In this document: piece after piece, positions 2,035-41,519 of the stretch
How positions within the stretch are numbered: the stretch's first letter is position 1
How the letters are laid out: each line of letters opens with the position of its first letter
Source of the DNA: Actinomycetota bacterium
GTDB lineage: Bacteria; Actinomycetota; Actinomycetes; S36-B12; CAIYMF01
Assembly: GCA_020161245.1 (NCBI GenBank)
Contig: JAIUOK010000007.1
Coordinates: 1 to 64,000, forward strand
Direction of reading: 5' to 3'
Length of the DNA stretch: 64,000 nt
Notes under the pieces: model-generated
Seen by the model: only the letters and a program-made list of their open reading frames with translations
Told to the model about the DNA's origin: nothing
Database searches by the model: none
Made by a program: the position numbers and the translations under genes

Positions 2035-2547
2035 TCAGGGCGAGGTAGTGCTGAGACCGGGCTCCTGCTTCGCGGCAGGGGCACGGAGATCTGTGGGCAG
2101 CTCGCGCTCGGCGCGCAGCAGGGCGATCTCGGCCTCGAAGTCCTCGAGGCCCTCGAAGGCCCGGTACACGCTGGCGAACCGCAGGTAGGCGATCTCGTCG
2201 AGGTCGCGCAGCGGCCCCAGGATCGCCAGGCCGACGTCGTGGCTGGCGATCTCGGCGCACCCGCTCGCGCGGACCGCCTCCTCGACCGCCTGGGCCAGCA
2301 GCGCCAGGTCGTCCTCGCTCACCGGCCGGCCCTGGCAGGCCTTGCGGACGCCGCTGGCGACCTTGGCCCGGCTGAACGGCTCGGTGACGCCGTTGCGCTT
2401 GACCACGGTGAGCGTGACCGTCTCCGCGGTGGTGAAGCGCTTGCCGCACTCGGGGCACTGACGGCGCCGGCGGATGCTCGTGCCGTCCTCGGACGCCCGG
2501 GAGTCGACGACGCGGGAGTCGGTGTGGCGGCAGAACGGGCAGTGCAT
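2035..2547 (-). CDS. nrdR: Transcriptional repressor NrdR
   Basis: Zinc- and nucleotide-binding repressor of ribonucleotide reductase genes, 170 aa. The N-terminal zinc ribbon has cysteine pairs CPFC (residues 3-6) and CPEC (31-34), followed by the basic stretch SIRRRRQ. An ATP-cone domain runs from about residue 48 ([11 protein letters not shown]) to about 140. The open frame extends upstream, but the ATG at 2547 is clearly the start: it opens with the family's MHCPFC and is preceded by GGGAGAGGAGG. nrdJ follows directly, as in many actinobacteria. Two NrdR-type boxes upstream suggest that the operon represses itself. Confidence 0.97.
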
Positions 2548-2675
2548 GTCTGGCGCCTCCTCTCCCGTGCTCGTCGGGCCCGGATCCGTGTCCGGTTTGC
2601 CCTGGTTCGGCGCTGTTCGCCCGTCCCCCTGTGGACGGCGATGGGGATCCCCTGGGGAGAACCTGTTAGCCGCGG

Positions 2676-2722
2676 ACCACAATCTGTGGATGACTTACAG
2701 CGATGTAACTACTAGATGTGGT
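2676..2722 (-). promoter_or_regulatory. Tandem NrdR boxes upstream of nrdR-nrdJ
   Basis: Two imperfect 16-bp palindromes: ACCACAATCTGTGGAT at 2676-2691, and AACTACTAGATGTGGT at 2707-2722 (reverse complement ACCACATCTAGTAGTT). Their starts are 31 bp apart, three helical turns, which is the known spacing of NrdR box pairs. They resemble the actinobacterial NrdR consensus with a CTAG-like centre. They lie 129-175 bp upstream of the nrdR start codon, so the promoter probably overlaps them. Confidence 0.82.
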
Positions 2723-2963
2723 GGAACCGTAGACCCCGCCTCCGACAGGCGCAAGGCCCTGATTCGGGCTCGGCGTGTCGTGATCTTGGAGCTCTGACCG
2801 GTGGTCGCGACACGCCGGATTTCCGTAGGGATTACGGCCGTGAGGATCCGTACGACCGGCTTCCGGACGGGCCCGCTGTCGGCGTGTCGCGGGCCCGATT
2901 CAGAGCATTCCAGAGGGGTCCGACACCCCAGATCGTCCACAGGCCGCGGCTGCGCACCCCTAC
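2723..2963. other. Intergenic region with an unassigned inverted repeat
   Basis: No convincing gene. It holds an inverted repeat at 2771-2817 with perfect 10-bp arms (CGGCGTGTCG and CGACACGCCG) around a 27-bp centre, and a short hairpin at 2918-2932 (GGGGT/ACCCC). The CGGCGTGTCG half recurs near 2879. These could be a regulator site or a structured leader. I cannot assign them. Confidence 0.4.
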
Positions 2964-3041
2964 ATGTGGGGCGTCGGCGAGCAACGACCCGCCCGTCGCT
3001 GGCACCGTGCCGCCATGGGGGACGGGGACTGGGGATCCGAG

Positions 3042-4076
3042 ATGTGGCACCGGGCGGCGGCCGGCCCGACCGACTGCCGCACCGATCCGCGCGGATGGCC
3101 GATGGACGTCGCGGTGGTCTGGGACGGCGGCGGCCGAGGGTTCGACTGGTACGACGGGACGGCCGACACGCTCGTGCCGCGCGTGCCGCGCACGGGCACC
3201 TTCGCCGCGTGGCTCCGCGAGATCGGGGTGGTCGGCGTCTTCGAGGGCGGGCGCTGGCGCAACGCCGTCGAGCTGGACGTGCTCGCCCGCCTGCGTGCGA
3301 ACGCCCCTGGCAGGTGGCCGCCGGCAGCGGTGGACCTGCTCGAGCGTTGGACCGAGCGACGGCTGCCCACCTGGGACGAGCTCGTGGCCGCCGTCCACCC
3401 GGGCATGACGTGGGACGAGATCAGCACCTGGCTCTCGATCGGCGCGACGTCCGACGAGCTCGCACACGGCGGCACGGTGTTCGACGTGCCGGACGGCTGG
3501 TTCGAACGCATCGACCCGAGATGGGGCTGCCTGCTGGACGGGCGGCGCCTGCTCCTGCATGGCCTGAGCAAGGAACAGGCCCTCGACTACCCCGCCCTGG
3601 CGCGGCAGCGGCTCGCCTCGTCTGTCACCCCTGCTTACATCCACGAGCTGCAGGGCGACGAGCGGCTGCTGCTGGAGCTGGACGAGCATCTGTGGATCTG
3701 TGCCTCCGCCATCGGGCAGGCCCACGACCTCCTCGAGGTATGGCGCCGACGCCTCGTCGACAAGGACGCCAGCACGCCGATCCCAGCGCTCGACGAGTGG
3801 CCAAGCGGCGGGTTCATCGATGCGGAGGACCCCTTCCGCTACCGGCGCGAGGCGGGCCATCCCGCAGGCTTCACGGAGTCTCAGCGGCAGGAGGTACGTG
3901 CCGTGCAGTCCGAGCTCACGGCGCTCACCCATCGCGTCGTCGACGCCATCGAGGTCGTCATCGAGTCGCAGCGCCCGCCTGAGCGCGAGGAGCTCCTCTC
4001 GATCCACGACGCGATCGCCCAAGCTCGCGCCGTCCACGACAGGGGCGTGTGGATCTGCAGTCTCGTTGCCGAGTAG
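3042..4076 (+). CDS. Hypothetical protein, 344 aa
   Basis: Not recognised. It is a soluble-looking protein with no signal peptide or membrane segment. It is rich in Trp and acidic residues and has alternating helix-like segments, for example around SKEQALDYPALARQRL and a C-terminal charged helix EVRAVQSELTALTHRVVDAIEVVIES. Codon use fits the window, and the antisense open frame looks like a shadow. Start sites are uncertain: 3042 has GGGGATCCGAG upstream, 3015 is possible, and 3102 (MDVAVVWDGG) gives a compact N-terminus. It stands alone between the nrdR promoter and a convergent secreted-protein gene. No function can be proposed. Confidence 0.65.
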   Translation: MWHRAAAGPTDCRTDPRGWPMDVAVVWDGGGRGFDWYDGTADTLVPRVPRTGTFAAWLREIGVVGVFEGGRWRNAVELDVLARLRANAPGRWPPAAVDLLERWTERRLPTWDELVAAVHPGMTWDEISTWLSIGATSDELAHGGTVFDVPDGWFERIDPRWGCLLDGRRLLLHGLSKEQALDYPALARQRLASSVTPAYIHELQGDERLLLELDEHLWICASAIGQAHDLLEVWRRRLVDKDASTPIPALDEWPSGGFIDAEDPFRYRREAGHPAGFTESQRQEVRAVQSELTALTHRVVDAIEVVIESQRPPEREELLSIHDAIAQARAVHDRGVWICSLVAE

Positions 4077-4128
4077 TGCTGCAGTCGCGTGCGGCCGTCG
4101 CCGCCGCCTGGACGCCGCGGTGCCGACA

Positions 4129-5013
4129 TCACATGAGGGCGAAGGAGAAGTCGCCGTCGGCCGGGGCGTCGGTGGCGCTGTCGCGCAGCGAGACGACGAA
4201 CCCGATGTACTGGGTGACGCCGGGCTCGCCGATCCCCGAGCCGCACAGCTGCGGCTCGAGGATCACGTTCGCCACCCGGCTCGACGACGTCACCATCGGC
4301 ACGAGCACCGTGACGCCGTCCGTGGGACGGCCCGCGTAGGTCCAGCCGTCGGCGCTGTAGGTGGCCTCGGGGTCGACCACGACGCAGTACTCCCCCGTCG
4401 AGAAGCGCTGCGCCACGATCGAGCCGCCGGTGCACGTCCAGGCCGCGGACACGGGGCTGCTGCTGAGCGACGACGACGCCGACCCGGTGCGGATGATCGC
4501 CCGCGCGGCCACCGACCCGCCGACTGCGGGATCGCCCGGGATGAGCGGGCAGCCGTGGACGTACTCCGACGCCGGCACTCCCCCGAGCTTGCTGGAGTCG
4601 GCGGCCGTCCCGGTCGTGCGCAGGTAGCTCGATGCGGGCTGCCCGCCGAGCTTGGTGGCGTTGGCCGCGGTGCCCGCGACCGGCAGGAAGTCGGTGGCGC
4701 GCTTGCCCTGCAGGTACGACGCGTTGAGGTTGGGCACCTGCGTCGTCGACGACACCTTCAGCGGCGCCCGGCCCTTCGGCACGGTGATCGAGATGCCGGT
4801 GGCCGACGCCGACGTGCTCTTGTTCGTCACCTGCAGCTGCGCGCCGGCGGTGGTACCGGTGAGCGTCGACGTGCCGCCCACCGTGTTGGTGCGGCCGAGG
4901 TTGAAGATCGCGCCGACGCCGGTGCCGGCGTACGCGGCCTGGGCCCCGAGCGCGACGGCGGTGGCGACAGCGCCGGCAGCGGCACCCAGGGCGAACGTGC
5001 GACGGCGGGACAT
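4129..5013 (-). CDS. Secreted protein with KLGG-type repeats
   Basis: Exported protein of 294 aa. The start at 5013 (MSRRRTF) has a GAGGGAG ribosome site and leads into a signal peptide: an Arg-rich n-region, a hydrophobic stretch LGAAAGAVATAVALGAQA, and an AYA-like cleavage site near residue 28. The middle has three degenerate repeats of about 20 residues (YLQGKRATDFL, KLGGQPASSYL, KLGGVPASEYV). This type occurs in actinobacterial and phage-tail-like secreted proteins. Four cysteines in the C-terminal half could form disulfides outside the cell. It converges on the 344-aa gene. Function is unknown; a surface or collagen-like structural role is only a guess. Confidence 0.8.
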   Translation of the reverse strand: MSRRRTFALGAAAGAVATAVALGAQAAYAGTGVGAIFNLGRTNTVGGTSTLTGTTAGAQLQVTNKSTSASATGISITVPKGRAPLKVSSTTQVPNLNASYLQGKRATDFLPVAGTAANATKLGGQPASSYLRTTGTAADSSKLGGVPASEYVHGCPLIPGDPAVGGSVAARAIIRTGSASSSLSSSPVSAAWTCTGGSIVAQRFSTGEYCVVVDPEATYSADGWTYAGRPTDGVTVLVPMVTSSSRVANVILEPQLCGSGIGEPGVTQYIGFVVSLRDSATDAPADGDFSFALM

Positions 5014-5112
5014 GCGGCGGCTCCCTCTCGAGGCGTCAACGGCATCGGGAGTCTGCCGAAGTTGCACGCGTCGGTGCCTGCCCTATGGCCGCGTGTCGCC
5101 CAGGTCGCCCAG

Positions 5113-5367
5113 TCAGCTCGATGCCGCGGGGCGGCGCAGACGGCGCACGCCCTTGAGGATCGCCTGGTCGATCGCGACGCCGACGCCGGCGTTGGCTGCC
5201 CCGAGCAGGGCGCCGCCGACAGCCAGGCCGAGCGGCGTCGTGCCCTCCGCGGCGTCGAAGATGCCGGCCTGCCAGAGCATGAGCGGCCAGACGACCGCGG
5301 CCGCGATGAGCGCGGTGCGCCACCACCAGCCGAGCACCAGACCGAACAGGATCATCGTCGGGATCAT
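5113..5367 (-). CDS. Small membrane protein, 84 aa
   Basis: Starts at MIPTMIL, where GAGGGGAG lies upstream; a longer frame exists but lacks such a site. There are two or three hydrophobic segments: MILFGLVLGWWW, ALIAAAVVWPLMLW, and a Gly/Ala-rich LGLAVGGALLGAANAGVGVAI. A basic tail KGVRRLRRP is likely cytoplasmic. Not recognised. Its neighbours, a secreted protein and a lipoprotein, are also envelope proteins, but no operon is evident. Confidence 0.7.
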   Translation of the reverse strand: MIPTMILFGLVLGWWWRTALIAAAVVWPLMLWQAGIFDAAEGTTPLGLAVGGALLGAANAGVGVAIDQAILKGVRRLRRPAASS

Positions 5368-5505
5368 CAGCGGCTCCCCTCGTTGATGATCACAGTCCTC
5401 CGCCAGCGGCAGGTGCACAAGCCCCCGCCGCGAACAACGGTCACGCCGGCACGATGCCGCTCAGCACAAGGTGGAAGCCGTTCAGGTCCCTGGTGAAGGA
5501 GCCCG

Positions 5506-6537
5506 TCAGCTGCCAGCCGCTCCGGCCAGGAGTGCCTGAACTTTCGCGGGCGCTGTGCCTTGGAAGCTGCCGGCGTCGATGCGTCCGCAGCCGTCGAGCT
5601 CGACCAGGAAGGCGCGGCCGCCGTCGGTGGGCGAGAGCAGCGCGTAGCGCGATGCCTCCTCGTTGCAGGTGGTGACCGGGCCCGTCGCCCTAAGCGCCGA
5701 GCGGACGGCGTCGCTCGCCGATGTGTCCAGAGTGCCGCCCTCGACGAACGCGAGGAGCATGTCCTCGCCCGAGCCCTGCAGCGGTCGCATCACGCAGACC
5801 CGCAGCGTCCCCGACCCCAGCTCCCGGAAGGCGGAGAGGTCGACCTTGTCCGGCCTCGATCCGATGCCGCCCTGCCAACGCCCTCCGCAGCCGACCTCGG
5901 CGCCGCGGATGTCGAGCAGGATCGTGGCGTCCGAGGGCTGGTGCTCTGTCGGGTAGTCGAGCTCGGCATCGGCCGCGCGGCCGCCGAGGTCATGCAGCGC
6001 CGCGAGGACCGGGCGCAAGGGGCCGTTGCACGTGCCCTGCGGGAAGCGGGGCGCGAGCAGCCGCCCCTCCGCGTCGACGAGGTAGAACTCCTGGTACACC
6101 GGGAGACTCAGGGTGCAGGCGCTCTCCTCGGGCGGCTCGTCCGGCAGGCGCAGGGCCGAGACCAGTGCGTCGAATCCGGAGTCGTAGCGGCGCTCGTGGA
6201 CGCCATAGGCCTGGGAGCCTGAGGCGAACTCGCGCATGAGCTGGTCGCACAGCACCACCCGCACCGGTTGGAAGTCGCCGATGCGCTCCCCGTTCAGCCA
6301 GGGGATGAGCCGCGGCGTGGCCTGCACGGCCGATCTCCCCTTCAAGCAGAGGCCCGTTCCGTCGGCGGCCCACGACTCTGTCGGCTCGGGCAGCGCACCG
6401 CCGTCGGCCTGGTGGACGGGTGCCGCCGAACTGCTCGCGGTCGATGGCACCTGCGCCACCGTGGTGCCGCACGCGGCAAGGGCCAGCGCCGACAGCACCA
6501 GGACGACCGGGCGCGCGGACGTACGGATCGACAGCAT
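5506..6537 (-). CDS. Lipoprotein, hypothetical, 343 aa
   Basis: Starts with MLSIRTSARPVVLVLSALALAACG, shown here in part; LALAAC is a lipobox giving an acylated Cys near residue 23. A Ser/Ala-rich linker follows, then a roughly 300-residue extracytoplasmic domain with several cysteines (LCLKG, VVLCDQ, SACTL, GTCNG, EVGCGG, RVCVM, TTCNEE, DGCGR), suggesting disulfides. No known domain was recognised. An open frame continues far upstream through the ClC gene, but that part is a shadow. The lipobox fixes the start. Confidence 0.82.
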   Translation of the reverse strand: MLSIRTSARPVVLVLSALALAACGTTVAQVPSTASSSAAPVHQADGGALPEPTESWAADGTGLCLKGRSAVQATPRLIPWLNGERIGDFQPVRVVLCDQLMREFASGSQAYGVHERRYDSGFDALVSALRLPDEPPEESACTLSLPVYQEFYLVDAEGRLLAPRFPQGTCNGPLRPVLAALHDLGGRAADAELDYPTEHQPSDATILLDIRGAEVGCGGRWQGGIGSRPDKVDLSAFRELGSGTLRVCVMRPLQGSGEDMLLAFVEGGTLDTSASDAVRSALRATGPVTTCNEEASRYALLSPTDGGRAFLVELDGCGRIDAGSFQGTAPAKVQALLAGAAGS

Positions 6538-6671
6538 GCGACCTCCCCCGTGGCCGGCGTCCGTGCTGTGCGGCCGCCGACGGCCTGGGCAGCCACGACG
6601 GCTGCCACCGCCGTCCATGGTGGCGCAGCGGCGACCGGATGTCGCGGCACCCGGCGTGCCGACGTGTCGCG

Positions 6672-8039
6672 TCAGGCGTTGCCGGCGCGGCGCTGCTCGC
6701 GGATCTTCACGGGGCGGATCGACGACTTCTGGTCGAGGCTCACCGCCGTCACGAGGCCGATCACGGCCGCGATGAGGACGATCGGGATCTGGCTCAGCGC
6801 CTGGGTGCCGAGCAGCACCGTCACGAGGACGATCGACGTGATCGGCAGGCGCAGCACGGCCGACGTCGCCGCCACCATGCCGACCGCGATCGCGGCGGTG
6901 GAGCCGAAGCCGGGCAGGTTGCCGGCGAGGATGCCGATGGCCGCGCCGATGAACAGCGCGGGGAACGTCGGGCCGCCGCGGAACGCGCCGATCGACACGG
7001 CGTAGGCGATGCCCTTGAACAGGATGAGCAGCAGCAGCGTGCCGGTCACCCACTCCTGCGGGTTGCCCACGAGCAGGGGCAGCGCGGTCTCGCCGGAGAA
7101 CAGGACGTCGGTGATCGGGCGGTCGGTGATCAGCGAGTACGCCGCCGCGCACAGGCCGACGATGAGGCCGACGACGACGGTGACGAGCACCGTGCGATCC
7201 TTGGCCTTCTCCGCCACCGTGAGCCCGACGCGCCGGGTCGCCTGCGCGAACAGCGCGCACACCAGCGAGAGCGGGATCGTCCAGAGCAGATCGGCGACGT
7301 CGAGGCTGCCCGCGGGGAGCCCGGGGATGCCGAGCGACGGCGCCTGGAAGCCAGTCCAGTCGCCGAGGCCGGTGAAGACCAGTGCGCCGACGCCGGCCGC
7401 CATCACCGCGGGCAGCAGGACGACGAGCACCTGCTGGCCCGCGAACCCGACCACCTCGAGCATGAGGACGACGGCGACGACGGGGTTGCCGAAGATCGTC
7501 GCGATCGCCGCGGCGGAGCCTGCGACCGAGAGCAGCGCGACAGCCTGCTGGTTGTCCGACAGCTTGGTCTGGCGCAGCGCGAACACCACCGCGCCCGCGC
7601 CGATCGCGACGAGCGGGGCCTCCGGGCCGACGACGGCGCCTAGCGTCAGCGACGCGATCGCGGCGAGAACGATGCCGGGCATCTCGGGGACCGTCGGCAT
7701 GCCGCCGCCCAGTCCGTGCGCCGGGATGTGGCCGCCGACGCCGGGCAGCTTCTTGATCGCCAGGCCGACGAGCAGGCCCGCGAGGGCGAGCACGATGACG
7801 CCGTACCACCAGGCCGGCTCGCTCATGCCGAGGGCGTCCGGGACCGACGTCCACACGACGTGCTCGAGCCAGTGCACGAGCGCCAGGAACCCGTAGGCCA
7901 CCAACGCGACCGGGATGCCGATGATCGCGGCCACGACCAGCAGCCCGCGGTAGCCGCGGCTGGTCAGCACCGCGACCAGCTCGGCGCCGGTGTCCTTCTC
8001 GGCGTCGGCCTGGTTGGCCTGCGCGGCGGCGTCGCTCAT
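6672..8039 (-). CDS. ClC-family chloride channel/transporter
   Basis: Polytopic inner-membrane protein of 455 aa. It begins MSDAAAQANQ, and many hydrophobic helices follow. ClC selectivity-filter regions are recognisable but altered. GGHIPAHGLGG stands where GSGIPxxxG is usual, GPEAPLVAIG replaces GREGP, and GAFRGGPTFPALFIGAAIG matches GxFxP. No cytoplasmic CBS domains follow the membrane part. The protein moves chloride or another anion; whether it is a channel or a proton antiporter cannot be read with confidence. It lies 134 bp upstream of the lipoprotein gene on the same strand. Confidence 0.9.
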   Translation of the reverse strand: MSDAAAQANQADAEKDTGAELVAVLTSRGYRGLLVVAAIIGIPVALVAYGFLALVHWLEHVVWTSVPDALGMSEPAWWYGVIVLALAGLLVGLAIKKLPGVGGHIPAHGLGGGMPTVPEMPGIVLAAIASLTLGAVVGPEAPLVAIGAGAVVFALRQTKLSDNQQAVALLSVAGSAAAIATIFGNPVVAVVLMLEVVGFAGQQVLVVLLPAVMAAGVGALVFTGLGDWTGFQAPSLGIPGLPAGSLDVADLLWTIPLSLVCALFAQATRRVGLTVAEKAKDRTVLVTVVVGLIVGLCAAAYSLITDRPITDVLFSGETALPLLVGNPQEWVTGTLLLLILFKGIAYAVSIGAFRGGPTFPALFIGAAIGILAGNLPGFGSTAAIAVGMVAATSAVLRLPITSIVLVTVLLGTQALSQIPIVLIAAVIGLVTAVSLDQKSSIRPVKIREQRRAGNA

Positions 8040-8107
8040 CGCCGTACCCCTCTCGTCCGGGGCCACCCTGCCAGAGCGGGCCTTCTCGCACCTCGCGGCA
8101 CCCGCTG

Positions 8108-8165
8108 CTCAGACTGATCAGGTTTGCGTTTACGGGGTCCTATTCGCGAAGTCGATCAGTCTGAG
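8108..8165 (-). terminator. Long hairpin downstream of the DUF1905 gene
   Basis: Perfect 12-bp arms CTCAGACTGATC (8108-8119) and GATCAGTCTGAG (8154-8165), with weaker pairing further in (TTTGCG/CGCGAA). It lies 15 bp after the DUF1905 stop and 69 bp before the ClC start. It has no T-run. It may terminate DUF1905 transcription or be another of the palindromic elements found in this window. Confidence 0.5.
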
Positions 8166-8180
8166 CGAGTGGCTGGTGCG

Positions 8181-8468
8181 TCAGACGTCGATGTGCAGGT
8201 GGATGCTGACGGTGTCGCCGAGCTCGAGGGACTCCTTGCGGCGCACCATGTCCTTGAGCGGGACGACGTAGCCGCCGTCCTTGGGCCACAGCGACGTCGT
8301 CCAGCGGGTGCCGCCGATCGTGCACGCGACCGGGATCATCCCCCAGCCGTAGGTGACGATCTTCGACGCCGACTCGATGGCGGCCGACTCGTCGTCGGGC
8401 ACGGTGAGGAAGTGGTACGGCGCCGGCCCGCGCCACTCCCAGATCTCGCCGGTGAACTCCAGCTCCAC
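8181..8468 (-). CDS. DUF1905 domain protein
   Basis: A 95-aa protein that is entirely a DUF1905 domain. The pattern FTGEIWEWRGPAPYHFLTVP, then GWGMIPVACTIGGTRWTTSLWPKDGGYVVPLKD, and the end RKESLELGDTVSIHLHID are typical of this family of small beta-barrel-like proteins of unknown biochemical role. The YdeI/OmpD-associated domain that sometimes follows is absent. It is a single gene, divergent from the membrane-anchored protein at 8578. Confidence 0.9.
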   Translation of the reverse strand: MELEFTGEIWEWRGPAPYHFLTVPDDESAAIESASKIVTYGWGMIPVACTIGGTRWTTSLWPKDGGYVVPLKDMVRRKESLELGDTVSIHLHIDV

Positions 8469-8577
8469 GCGTGCACGCTAGCCGCGGGCACCGACCCTCC
8501 GGACGATCTTGGTCGTCCGAGCGGACGATCGTGGCCCGGCCTGGACGTGGCTACCGTCGGAGCAAGGGGGTGCATCG

Positions 8578-9093
8578 ATGGCAGACGCCTCGCCGGACGC
8601 CGCGCCGCTCGACGAGCCGCTCGACGAGCCGCGAATCCCGCGAGCGCGCCGCTGGGGCCAGAACACGGCGCGGGCGCTCGGCGCAGTCTTCGCGGCGTGT
8701 GTCGTCGTGCTAGTGGCCTGGTCCTTCAAGCCGACGCTGCTCGACTTCGGTCGGCCGGAGGGGTTCCGCTCCTTCGACGTCACAGGGGTCGTATCGGTTC
8801 GCGCCGGTGACTCCTATGGCGTGTACGCAGTTGCGCACAGCAAGGTCGGCCCGAGCAACGCGACGGTGGTCAACGACGCGGACAGTGGCTGGTGGCTATC
8901 TGTTCCCGGCGGGACGTACTTCGAGGGCGGCGGCGAATGCCTCGCGCAACTACGTCTGGACGGACGGCCGTACCTCCTCTTCACGACCCCGACAGACCCT
9001 GTCGGCACTCGGCTCACGGTGCAGGGCCACGACTTCACGGTGCGATCCATCGTGGACCCGAACCGGACCAACCCTCCGTCGTTGGGCTGCTGA
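8578..9093 (+). CDS. Membrane-anchored hypothetical protein, 171 aa
   Basis: Starts at MADASPD, with GGGGG a few bases upstream. An acidic, Pro-rich N-terminus of about 30 residues and a basic patch RARRWGQ precede one transmembrane helix (ALGAVFAACVVVLVAWSF, about residues 33-50). An extracytoplasmic domain of about 110 residues follows, with two cysteines. Codon use is somewhat less GC-biased than in the core genes nearby, which may indicate recent acquisition. Not recognised. Confidence 0.7.
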   Translation: MADASPDAAPLDEPLDEPRIPRARRWGQNTARALGAVFAACVVVLVAWSFKPTLLDFGRPEGFRSFDVTGVVSVRAGDSYGVYAVAHSKVGPSNATVVNDADSGWWLSVPGGTYFEGGGECLAQLRLDGRPYLLFTTPTDPVGTRLTVQGHDFTVRSIVDPNRTNPPSLGC

Positions 9094-9268
9094 GACGGCT
9101 TGCGCACCGGAGAGGCTGCTGCCGAACTGGGTCGCGGTGCCCGTCGCCGGAACTGGCTCCCCCGAGCCGGTCGACTGCTGCTGATCCCGTTCGGGGACGC
9201 CGGGCAGGACTCTGCCCCGCAGCTGTGGCGGCAGACCTGCGGGGCAGAAGCTGTGGATGGCTGAATCC

Positions 9269-9316
9269 GTGAAGGGTGGAACTGTCCGGCTCTATTGGTC
9301 GAGGGGACCCTTCATC
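9269..9316 (+). repeat. TCTAT-core palindromic element, copy 1
   Basis: 48 bp between two convergent genes. The ends GTGAAGGGT and ACCCTTCATC pair. The interior CTGTCCGGCTCTATTGGTC recurs nearly unchanged at 23061-23109 (opposite strand) and 23169-23219, while the outer stems differ between copies. It may act as a two-way terminator, or be a REP-like element. Confidence 0.7.
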
Positions 9317-9347: not shown

Positions 9348-9542
9348 CTAGGCGGAGCGGAGGCCGGCGTCGTAGCGGTGGTCGTGCTGGAGCTCGAGGA
9401 GCTCGTCGGCGGCGTCGTCGACGAGCTCGAGGGAGAACGAGCCGTCGGGCCACTCGTGCAGGTCGAAGGTCTTGTTCGCGTGCTGGGGCAGCACGAACGC
9501 GACGACGCCGAGCTCGTCGGTGGTGATCCGTCGTGCCGTCAC
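9348..9542 (-). CDS. Small hypothetical protein, 64 aa, third gene of the LysM operon
   Basis: Overlaps the upstream 90-aa gene by ATGA, so translation is probably coupled. The sequence MTARRITTDELGVVAFVLPQ, then NKTFDLHEWPDGSFSLELVDD, resembles its neighbour's TTDADGWARIRLRDFPNATFELEE (TTD, about 13 residues, then N-x-TF-[DE]-L-x-E). The two may be diverged duplicates. Not recognised. Its place behind a probable SOS-induced gene suggests induction by DNA damage. Confidence 0.65.
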   Translation of the reverse strand: MTARRITTDELGVVAFVLPQHANKTFDLHEWPDGSFSLELVDDAADELLELQHDHRYDAGLRSA

Positions 9543-9811
9543 GACGCCCTCCCCTGGGTGCGCTGGGACTCGCGGAACGCCTCGGCGATCTCACGGAGGC
9601 TGGCCTCGAAGCGGCCGTCGGAGGCGGACGGCGTGTTCACGACGCCGTTCTCGTCGGGGAACAGCAGCGTCAGCGAGTACGTGACGAGCCGCTCGTCGGG
9701 CTCGAGCTCCTCGTCGTCGTAGCGCTCCTGCTCCTCGAGCTCGAACGTCGCGTTCGGGAAGTCGCGGAGGCGGATACGGGCCCAGCCGTCGGCGTCGGTG
9801 GTGACGATCAT
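9539..9811 (-). CDS. Small hypothetical protein, 90 aa, second gene of the LysM operon
   Basis: Starts at MIVTTDADGW, overlapping the LysM gene's stop by ATGA. The N-terminal half RIRLRDFPNATFELEEQERYDDEELEPDERLV is very acidic after a short beta-like segment, and the C-terminus EASLREIAEAFRESQRTQ is a likely amphipathic helix. There is no membrane segment. It shares a short pattern with the following 64-aa gene. I considered an AbrB-like fold but saw no convincing motif. Function unknown. Confidence 0.68.
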   Translation of the reverse strand: MIVTTDADGWARIRLRDFPNATFELEEQERYDDEELEPDERLVTYSLTLLFPDENGVVNTPSASDGRFEASLREIAEAFRESQRTQGRAS

Positions 9812-10221
9812 CGGGCCGGGGCGGGGACGACGAGGGTCTGGCCGGGGACGACCGACTTCGAGTCGAGGTTGTTCAGCGTCGCGATGCGCTCGATCGTCGC
9901 GCGGACGTCGTCGCCGGGGGCTGCGCCCTTGGCGATGCTCCACAGCGTGTCGCCCGGCTGGACGATGACCTGCACGGTGGCGGGCACGGCGGCGTCGGAG
10001 CCGGCGCCGGCGGGCGTGCGGCCCAGCAGGCTGACGGCCAGGACGACGAGGAGCGCGAGCACCACGACGCCGGTGCGCACGAGACGGCGGCCGCGGCGGG
10101 TGAGCCGCACCGGCGCCGGGGCAGGTGCCGAAGCGTGCTGGACGCGCGCGGCCGGAGCCACCGTCCGACGGGTCGCCGGGCGGGCCGCGCGGGCCGGGGC
10201 GGGGATCGTGATCGCTGCCAT
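9808..10221 (-). CDS. LysM protein divergent from lexA, probable SOS-induced division inhibitor
   Basis: A 137-aa membrane-anchored protein: a basic Ala/Pro-rich N-terminus, one transmembrane helix (about residues 49-67, TGVVVLALLVVLAVSLLG), and an extracytoplasmic LysM domain (about 83-133, with VQPGDTLWSIAKG and LNNLDSKSVVPGQTLVVP). LysM binds peptidoglycan. The layout and position next to lexA match Bacillus YneA, Corynebacterium DivS and mycobacterial Rv2719c, which are SOS-induced and slow cell division. That role is inferred here. The SOS box at 10293 lies 72 bp upstream. Two small genes overlap its end. Confidence 0.88.
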   Translation of the reverse strand: MAAITIPAPARAARPATRRTVAPAARVQHASAPAPAPVRLTRRGRRLVRTGVVVLALLVVLAVSLLGRTPAGAGSDAAVPATVQVIVQPGDTLWSIAKGAAPGDDVRATIERIATLNNLDSKSVVPGQTLVVPAPAR

Positions 10222-10292
10222 GACTGCCTCCGTCTGTCCTGCTGTCGTACCGCCGGGCCGCGGGGAATCGGGTCCGGTGGTGCGGCGGGCGT

Positions 10293-10308
10293 TCGAACGG
10301 GTGTTCGG
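10293..10308. promoter_or_regulatory. SOS (LexA) box 1, between the LysM gene and lexA
   Basis: TCGAACGGGTGTTCGG differs at one base from the actinobacterial consensus TCGAAC-N4-GTTCGA. It lies 72 bp upstream of the LysM gene and is well placed to control it. LexA autoregulation would use this or box 2. Confidence 0.85.
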
Positions 10309-10370: not shown

Positions 10371-10386
10371 TGAAACGCGTGTTCGA
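10371..10386. promoter_or_regulatory. SOS (LexA) box 2, upstream of lexA
   Basis: TGAAACGCGTGTTCGA has a perfect right half and two changes in the left half of the LexA consensus. It starts 78 bp from box 1. The rest of the 423-bp divergent region (10222-10644) shows no gene, and lexA's translation start is a further 258 bp downstream. Confidence 0.7.
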
Positions 10387-10644: not shown

Positions 10645-11400
10645 ATGAGCACCACCGGCAAGAGCGGCTCGCCCAAGCGCAAGGCCGGGCGGCCGAAGGT
10701 CGTCGAGATCCCCGTGCCCGAGGGCCTGCCCGAGGCCGACGGCCTCACCGTCCGGCAGCGCATCGTGCTCGACATGATCCGCACGTCGATCGAGTCGCGC
10801 GGCTACCCGCCGTCGATGCGCGAGATCGGCGACGCCGTCGGGCTCACGTCGCCGTCGTCGGTGGCCCACCAGCTCGCCGCGCTGGAGAAGAAGGGCTACA
10901 TCCGCCGCGACCCGCGCCTGCCGCGCGCGATGGAGGTCGTCGACCCGCACGCCTCGGGCGCCGCGCTCTCCCACGCCGACCCCGACTCCGACATCGACGA
11001 GACCGGCGCCGGCGACTCGCGCCCGGCCGCGCAGTACGTCCCCGTCCTGGGCCGTATCGCCGCCGGTGGCCCGATCCTCGCCGAGCAGGCGGTCGAGGAG
11101 ATCTTCCCGCTGCCGAAGTCGCTCGTCGGCGACGGCGAGCTGTTCCTGCTCAAGGTCTCCGGCGACTCGATGATCGAGGCCGCGATCTGCGACGGCGACT
11201 GGGTCGTCGTCCGCTCGCAGCACACCGCTGAGAACGGCGAGATCGTCGCAGCGATGCTCGACGACGAGGCCACGGTCAAGACGTTCCAGAAGCGCAACGG
11301 GCACGTGAAACTGCTGCCGGCCAACCCGCAGTACTCCCCCATCGACGGCGACCACGCCCGCATCGTCGGCAAGGTCGTCGCCGTCCTCCGCCGCCTCTGA
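10645..11400 (+). CDS. lexA: LexA repressor
   Basis: SOS master repressor, 251 aa. A Lys-rich N-terminal extension of about 30 residues precedes the winged-helix DNA-binding domain (about 32-100, with [21 protein letters not shown]). The self-cleavage domain follows: Ala140-Gly141 in GRIAAGGP, Ser175 in VSGDSMIE and Lys212 in ATVKTF form the cleavage site and Ser-Lys dyad. RecA filaments trigger cleavage. The gene is divergent from the LysM operon, with two SOS boxes between them, and is followed by a strong terminator. Confidence 0.98.
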
Positions 11401-41463: not shown

Positions 41464-41479
41464 TCGAACACCCGTTCGA
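41464..41479 (-). promoter_or_regulatory. SOS box, perfect, upstream of recA
   Basis: TCGAACACCCGTTCGA is an exact match to TCGAAC-N4-GTTCGA, 157 bp upstream of the recA start. It should bind LexA from this window strongly. Confidence 0.93.
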
Positions 41480-41503: not shown

Positions 41504-41519
41504 TCGAACAGCTGTTCTA
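41504..41519 (-). promoter_or_regulatory. Second SOS box, overlapping the DUF3046 stop codon
   Basis: TCGAACAGCTGTTCTA has one mismatch to the LexA consensus and starts 40 bp from the perfect box. Its last three bases are the DUF3046 stop codon. Two boxes suggest cooperative or graded LexA control of recA. Confidence 0.85.

Follow-up and report, generated by a model that had tools for sequence, protein, structure and literature searches.

Descriptions of the SOS division inhibitors of Gram-positive bacteria present them as lone membrane proteins that stop the synthesis of the septal wall, and the antagonists DdcA, CtpA, and DdcP/YlbL of Bacillus are separately encoded. In the yneA-yneB-ynzC operon, the genes co-transcribed with yneA are not known to have a role in division control. 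The genes for YneA, ChiZ, and SosA lie beside lexA (PMC6851548, PMC3989709). FtsW is the route by which YneA blocks septal wall synthesis, and for ChiZ the same is suggested by AlphaFold 3 models of low confidence (PMC13396833). In Bacillus, yneA is co-transcribed with yneB and with the small-protein gene ynzC (PMC3896406, PMC6051672), and in B. pumilus H2O2 induces all three genes jointly (PMC3896406). A sequence-only reading of the locus described here had stated that it knew of no coupled partners of this kind; the Bacillus operon is one, and the statement was too strong (PMC3896406, PMC6051672).

The locus lies in a 64,000-nt stretch of DNA, here called the window, where lexA (10645 to 11400, plus strand) was identified by Pfam matches to LexA_DNA_bind (1.3e-27) and Peptidase_S24 (4.7e-35). 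Divergent from lexA is a gene for a 137-aa LysM protein (9808 to 10221, minus strand; ATG at 10221, stop at 9810-9808), which has GGAGG ahead of its ATG. Two small genes follow on the same strand. The first encodes 90 aa (9539 to 9811, minus strand; ATG at 9811-9809, coding to 9542, stop at 9541-9539), and its start overlaps the LysM stop as ATGA. On inspection of the sequence, no Shine-Dalgarno motif was in sight at this ATG, which would fit ribosomes that re-initiate at the end of the LysM gene. The second encodes 64 aa (9348 to 9542, minus strand; GTG at 9542-9540, stop at 9350-9348), and a strong Shine-Dalgarno sequence, AGGGGAGGG, lies about 5 nt before its GTG, inside the 90-aa gene. The gene order given by the sequence-only reading, with the LysM gene divergent from lexA and the two small genes behind it (minus strand, 10221 to 9348), holds. 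That reading had both overlaps as ATGA, which is correct for the LysM and 90-aa genes and has to be amended to GTGA for the 90-aa and 64-aa genes.

By codon position, the GC content is 0.68/0.44/0.98 in the 90-aa gene and 0.77/0.38/0.97 in the 64-aa gene, similar to lexA (0.71/0.47/0.98) and unlike the intergenic DNA beyond (0.77/0.60/0.70). Thus, based on codon composition, both small open reading frames are real genes.

The LysM protein has a basic N terminus, one hydrophobic segment after RLTRRGRRLVRTG, as read from the sequence, and a LysM domain at residues 86 to 133 (Pfam LysM, 43 bits, 3.3e-11). It thus crosses the membrane once and carries its LysM domain on the outside, as YneA/ChiZ-type proteins do, and its gene shows the other mark of that type, a divergent position next to lexA with LexA boxes in between. 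Orthologues stand beside lexA in relatives as well. Against the NCBIfam YneA model the protein scored 46 bits, below the cut-off of 60, which places it as similar in type to YneA and not as a YneA equivalog. The LysM match, the one transmembrane segment, the similarity to the YneA model, and the neighboring lexA all bear out the earlier description of the product as YneA/ChiZ-like. The protein is a probable damage-induced cell-division inhibitor, which would make it one of a known kind of system.

We read the region upstream of lexA in 74 loci, 14 within the same family and 60 outside it, within the order and class. The LysM gene was beside lexA in 63 of these loci, which range from the genus to the class, and nrdR was the next gene in most of the LysM-bearing loci. 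Divergent lexA and LysM genes followed by nrdR are therefore an old actinomycete arrangement. Same-genus loci that could be read have nrdR within about 0.2 to 0.6 kb after the LysM gene or the small gene. In the window, nrdR (2092 to 2547, minus strand) is found about 6.8 kb further on. Several unrelated genes occupy positions 2600 to 9300 and separate nrdR from the LysM operon; between the 64-aa gene and nrdR are a chloride-channel-like gene (recognized by eye), a DUF1905 gene, and others.

A LexA box, TCGAACGGGTGTTCGG, was found at 10293 to 10308 (plus strand), 72 nt upstream of the LysM start and with one mismatch to the pattern TCGAACnnnnGTTCGA, in line with the SOS box that had been claimed to precede the three-gene set. 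A second, weaker site resembling a LexA box, TGAAACGCGTGTTCGA, lies at 10371 to 10386 (plus strand) with two mismatches, and a box near that position recurs in several relatives. The window holds 10 matches to TCGAACnnnnGTTCGA at two or fewer mismatches, whereas 100 shuffles gave 2.9 on average and at most 8; genome-wide, there are 29 matches at one or fewer mismatches, against 9 for the reversed control pattern. Boxes with 0 to 2 mismatches are also present between lexA and the LysM gene in the genus and family loci scanned, apart from a single locus truncated at the end of its contig. Elsewhere in the window, two boxes 40 nt apart (41464 to 41479 and 41504 to 41519, with 0 and 1 mismatch) lie upstream of a minus-strand gene recognized by eye as recA-like from its translation. 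As architecture, then, the proposed SOS-type operon divergent from lexA is borne out by the overlaps and by the LexA boxes here and at recA. Taken by themselves, the boxes suggest that LexA binds at 10293 and 10371 and that the LysM operon is induced by DNA damage. Induction through PafBC instead of LexA, or no induction at all, seems improbable to us. Its precedent is the mycobacterial Rv2719c, which the title of Brooks et al. 2006, as cited in PMC13396833, reports as inducible without RecA. However, we found no PafBC/RecA_NDp-type promoter motif at two or fewer mismatches upstream of the LysM gene, in this genome or in most of the genus, and LexA boxes are present there instead.

The two small proteins matched no known family in Pfam, NCBIfam, or PHROGs. 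Neither they nor their relatives matched Pfam DUF896, the YnzC family, and there was no match of note to PDB sequences. AlphaFold2 models were poor (pLDDT 63.6 and 61.0 for the two proteins). In each model, strands precede a helix at the C terminus, a likeness that is not independent, as the alignment used for the 90-aa protein included 64-aa proteins, and a fold search with these low-confidence models returned chance matches only. An AbrB-like reading of the small-protein motif was dropped because no profile matched. By eye, no transmembrane segment and no signal peptide are visible in either protein, suggesting that both are probably cytosolic.

A shared motif, TTD..G...N.TF-[DE]-L..E, is present in both proteins, much as the sequence-only reading had written it (TTD...N-x-TF-[DE]-L-x-E) when it proposed that they are diverged duplicates. 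Profile comparisons support that proposal as probable. The 90-aa protein scored 11.2 bits against a profile of the 64-aa family, a score reached by none of 5,000 shuffles, though the single E value is weak (about 0.3). When the same profile was run against the 1,727 open reading frames of the 74 loci, the 90-aa protein and a protein of G011 came next after the four orthologues. In the reverse direction, a search with the 90-aa protein ranked the four 64-aa proteins 2nd, 4th, 5th, and 6th, and one with the G011 protein hit the 64-aa protein of G012 at an E value of 0.007. It is very probable, on these sequence comparisons, that the 90-aa protein is a diverged tandem copy of the 64-aa family, probably one that carries a central insertion and is extended at the C terminus. 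We detected no homologue of it in other genomes, including those of the genus, or in named genomes, plasmids, or phages. This absence, together with its far divergence from the 64-aa family, would fit a decaying or newborn copy without function, leaving the 64-aa protein alone to matter. We consider this unlikely, as the reading frame is intact, its composition is strongly that of a coding gene (GC2 0.44, GC3 0.98), and it overlaps both neighboring genes exactly.

The 64-aa protein has orthologues at the lexA-LysM locus in G007, G012, and G010, with identities of 73%, 70%, and 66%, and the LysM proteins of the same pairs are 53%, 51%, and 67% identical. The small protein is thus clearly better conserved than the LysM protein in two of the three pairs and equal to it in the third. 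G011 has a diverged 76-aa relative at this locus. In four of the five genomes, the start of the first small gene falls within -3 to +6 nt of the LysM stop; in G010 it is uncoupled, about 160 nt downstream of the LysM gene. This uncoupled gene and the displaced nrdR of the window point to a fluid neighborhood. Four other members of the genus (G006, G013, G014, and G015) have the LysM gene without a small gene, which suggests that the LysM protein presumably works without the small protein; G008 and G009, in which the locus is missing or cut, were left out of this count. Across the genus, the GC content of the lexA loci (L027 to L035) ranges from 0.59 to 0.74, and small genes were found only in members at 0.69 or above.

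Beyond the genus, 166 genomes of the order gave nothing above chance-level scores for the 64-aa protein elsewhere, and class-level matches in 395 genomes, with E values of 0.002 to 0.007 per genome, were weak and were taken as chance. Among named genomes, the 64-aa gene was found on only two contigs (Actinomycetes bacterium isolate JPNG_maxbin.064 and Micrococcales bacterium isolate Ww176), which add no genomes beyond G012 and G010, already counted. The resolution of the LexA tree is too low to tell a single origin of the small gene in the genus from several, and the dN/dS of the 64-aa gene (NG86), about 0.5 to 0.8, is hard to read with third positions almost all G or C.

The slot behind the SOS LysM gene carries different cargo in different lineages. 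In two other genera of the order (G032, L127; G099, L144), a gene of about 250 aa resembling SGNH hydrolases, with the motif VLVIGDS, follows the LysM gene directly, starting at -3 and +6 nt from its stop, respectively. In G193 (L145), a short tandem repeat, whose translation repeats SVIMQSRHPWTPP, lies just after the LysM stop.

Together, we read the locus as a YneA/ChiZ-type SOS operon for a cell-division checkpoint; in part of the genus it would have gained a gene for a small cytosolic protein, which was then duplicated in this species. We give this reading a probability of roughly 0.5. LexA bound at the 10293 and 10371 boxes would repress both lexA and the LysM operon. DNA damage would lead to LexA cleavage, and the LysM protein and the two small proteins would then be made together, the overlapping starts and stops keeping the small proteins in a near-fixed ratio to the LysM protein. 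In the membrane, the LysM protein would block septal wall synthesis. Both the co-induction of the three genes and the inhibition of division are predictions from the sequence. With the LysM domain outside and the small proteins in the cytosol, contact would be limited to the N terminus and membrane segment of the LysM protein or to cytosolic parts of the divisome; the small proteins would most likely act on this cytosolic side of the checkpoint, at the basic LysM N terminus or at a divisome part. Their target is the least certain part of the model.

One possibility for their role is that the 64-aa/90-aa family is a dedicated cytosolic partner, tuning the action or stability of the LysM inhibitor in a fixed ratio. 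We hold this tentatively. Regulators, chaperones, or antagonists of the LysM protein, the roles offered by the sequence-only reading, are conjectural. A role tied to the LysM protein is favored by how closely the small gene follows the LysM stop in four of five genomes and by the failure to find the family elsewhere. The same-genus members that lack a small gene and the other cargo found in the slot argue against one, as does the nearest precedent, yneA-yneB-ynzC, whose co-transcribed genes are not known to act in division control. The small proteins might instead be independent SOS effectors whose genes borrow the LexA-controlled promoter of the LysM gene while the proteins themselves are unconnected to its product. 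They could be, for instance, an accessory to repair or replication, or another division inhibitor, one that acts in the cytosol. This has perhaps one chance in three in its favor. It has a precedent in yneA-yneB-ynzC, which brings resolvase-like and DUF896 proteins together in one operon, and the unrelated SGNH-hydrolase-like genes close behind LysM in G032 and G099 likewise indicate a slot open to different cargo. However, every family member found in the order and class genomes searched sits beside lexA and LysM, so that what the sequence-only reading would have taken as a refutation did not turn up, and the tight start/stop spacing in four of the five genomes also speaks against independent effectors. 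We place the dedicated partner a little above independent effectors.

The novelty here lies in the small-protein family and in one genus having recruited it; the checkpoint locus itself is known. The locus offers a small test case for the recruitment of lineage-specific genes into the SOS regulon. If the small proteins are indeed partners of the LysM protein, they would form a built-in second component of the checkpoint, in contrast to the separately encoded DdcA, CtpA, and DdcP/YlbL of Bacillus. Such a cytosolic partner, made together with the inhibitor and no less conserved than it wherever the partner is present, would show that the checkpoint can have a second, adjustable part.

Among the known systems, DivS of Corynebacterium and SosA of Staphylococcus are likewise SOS-induced membrane division inhibitors encoded beside lexA. 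They differ in being without LysM, and a coupled partner of the 64-aa/90-aa family is not described for them in the literature examined. Mycobacterium shares the gene order of lexA, Rv2719c (ChiZ), and nrdR, and the type of LysM membrane protein. In Mycobacterium and in most of the actinomycete loci read, however, nrdR directly follows the LysM gene with no small genes between, and Rv2719c also stands apart by the RecA-independent induction given in the title cited above. The partners in the yneA-yneB-ynzC operon, a resolvase-like and a DUF896 protein, are unrelated in sequence to the small proteins described here, but the operon has the same elements: an SOS-controlled LysM division inhibitor encoded next to lexA, and a co-transcribed small-protein gene, ynzC (DUF896).
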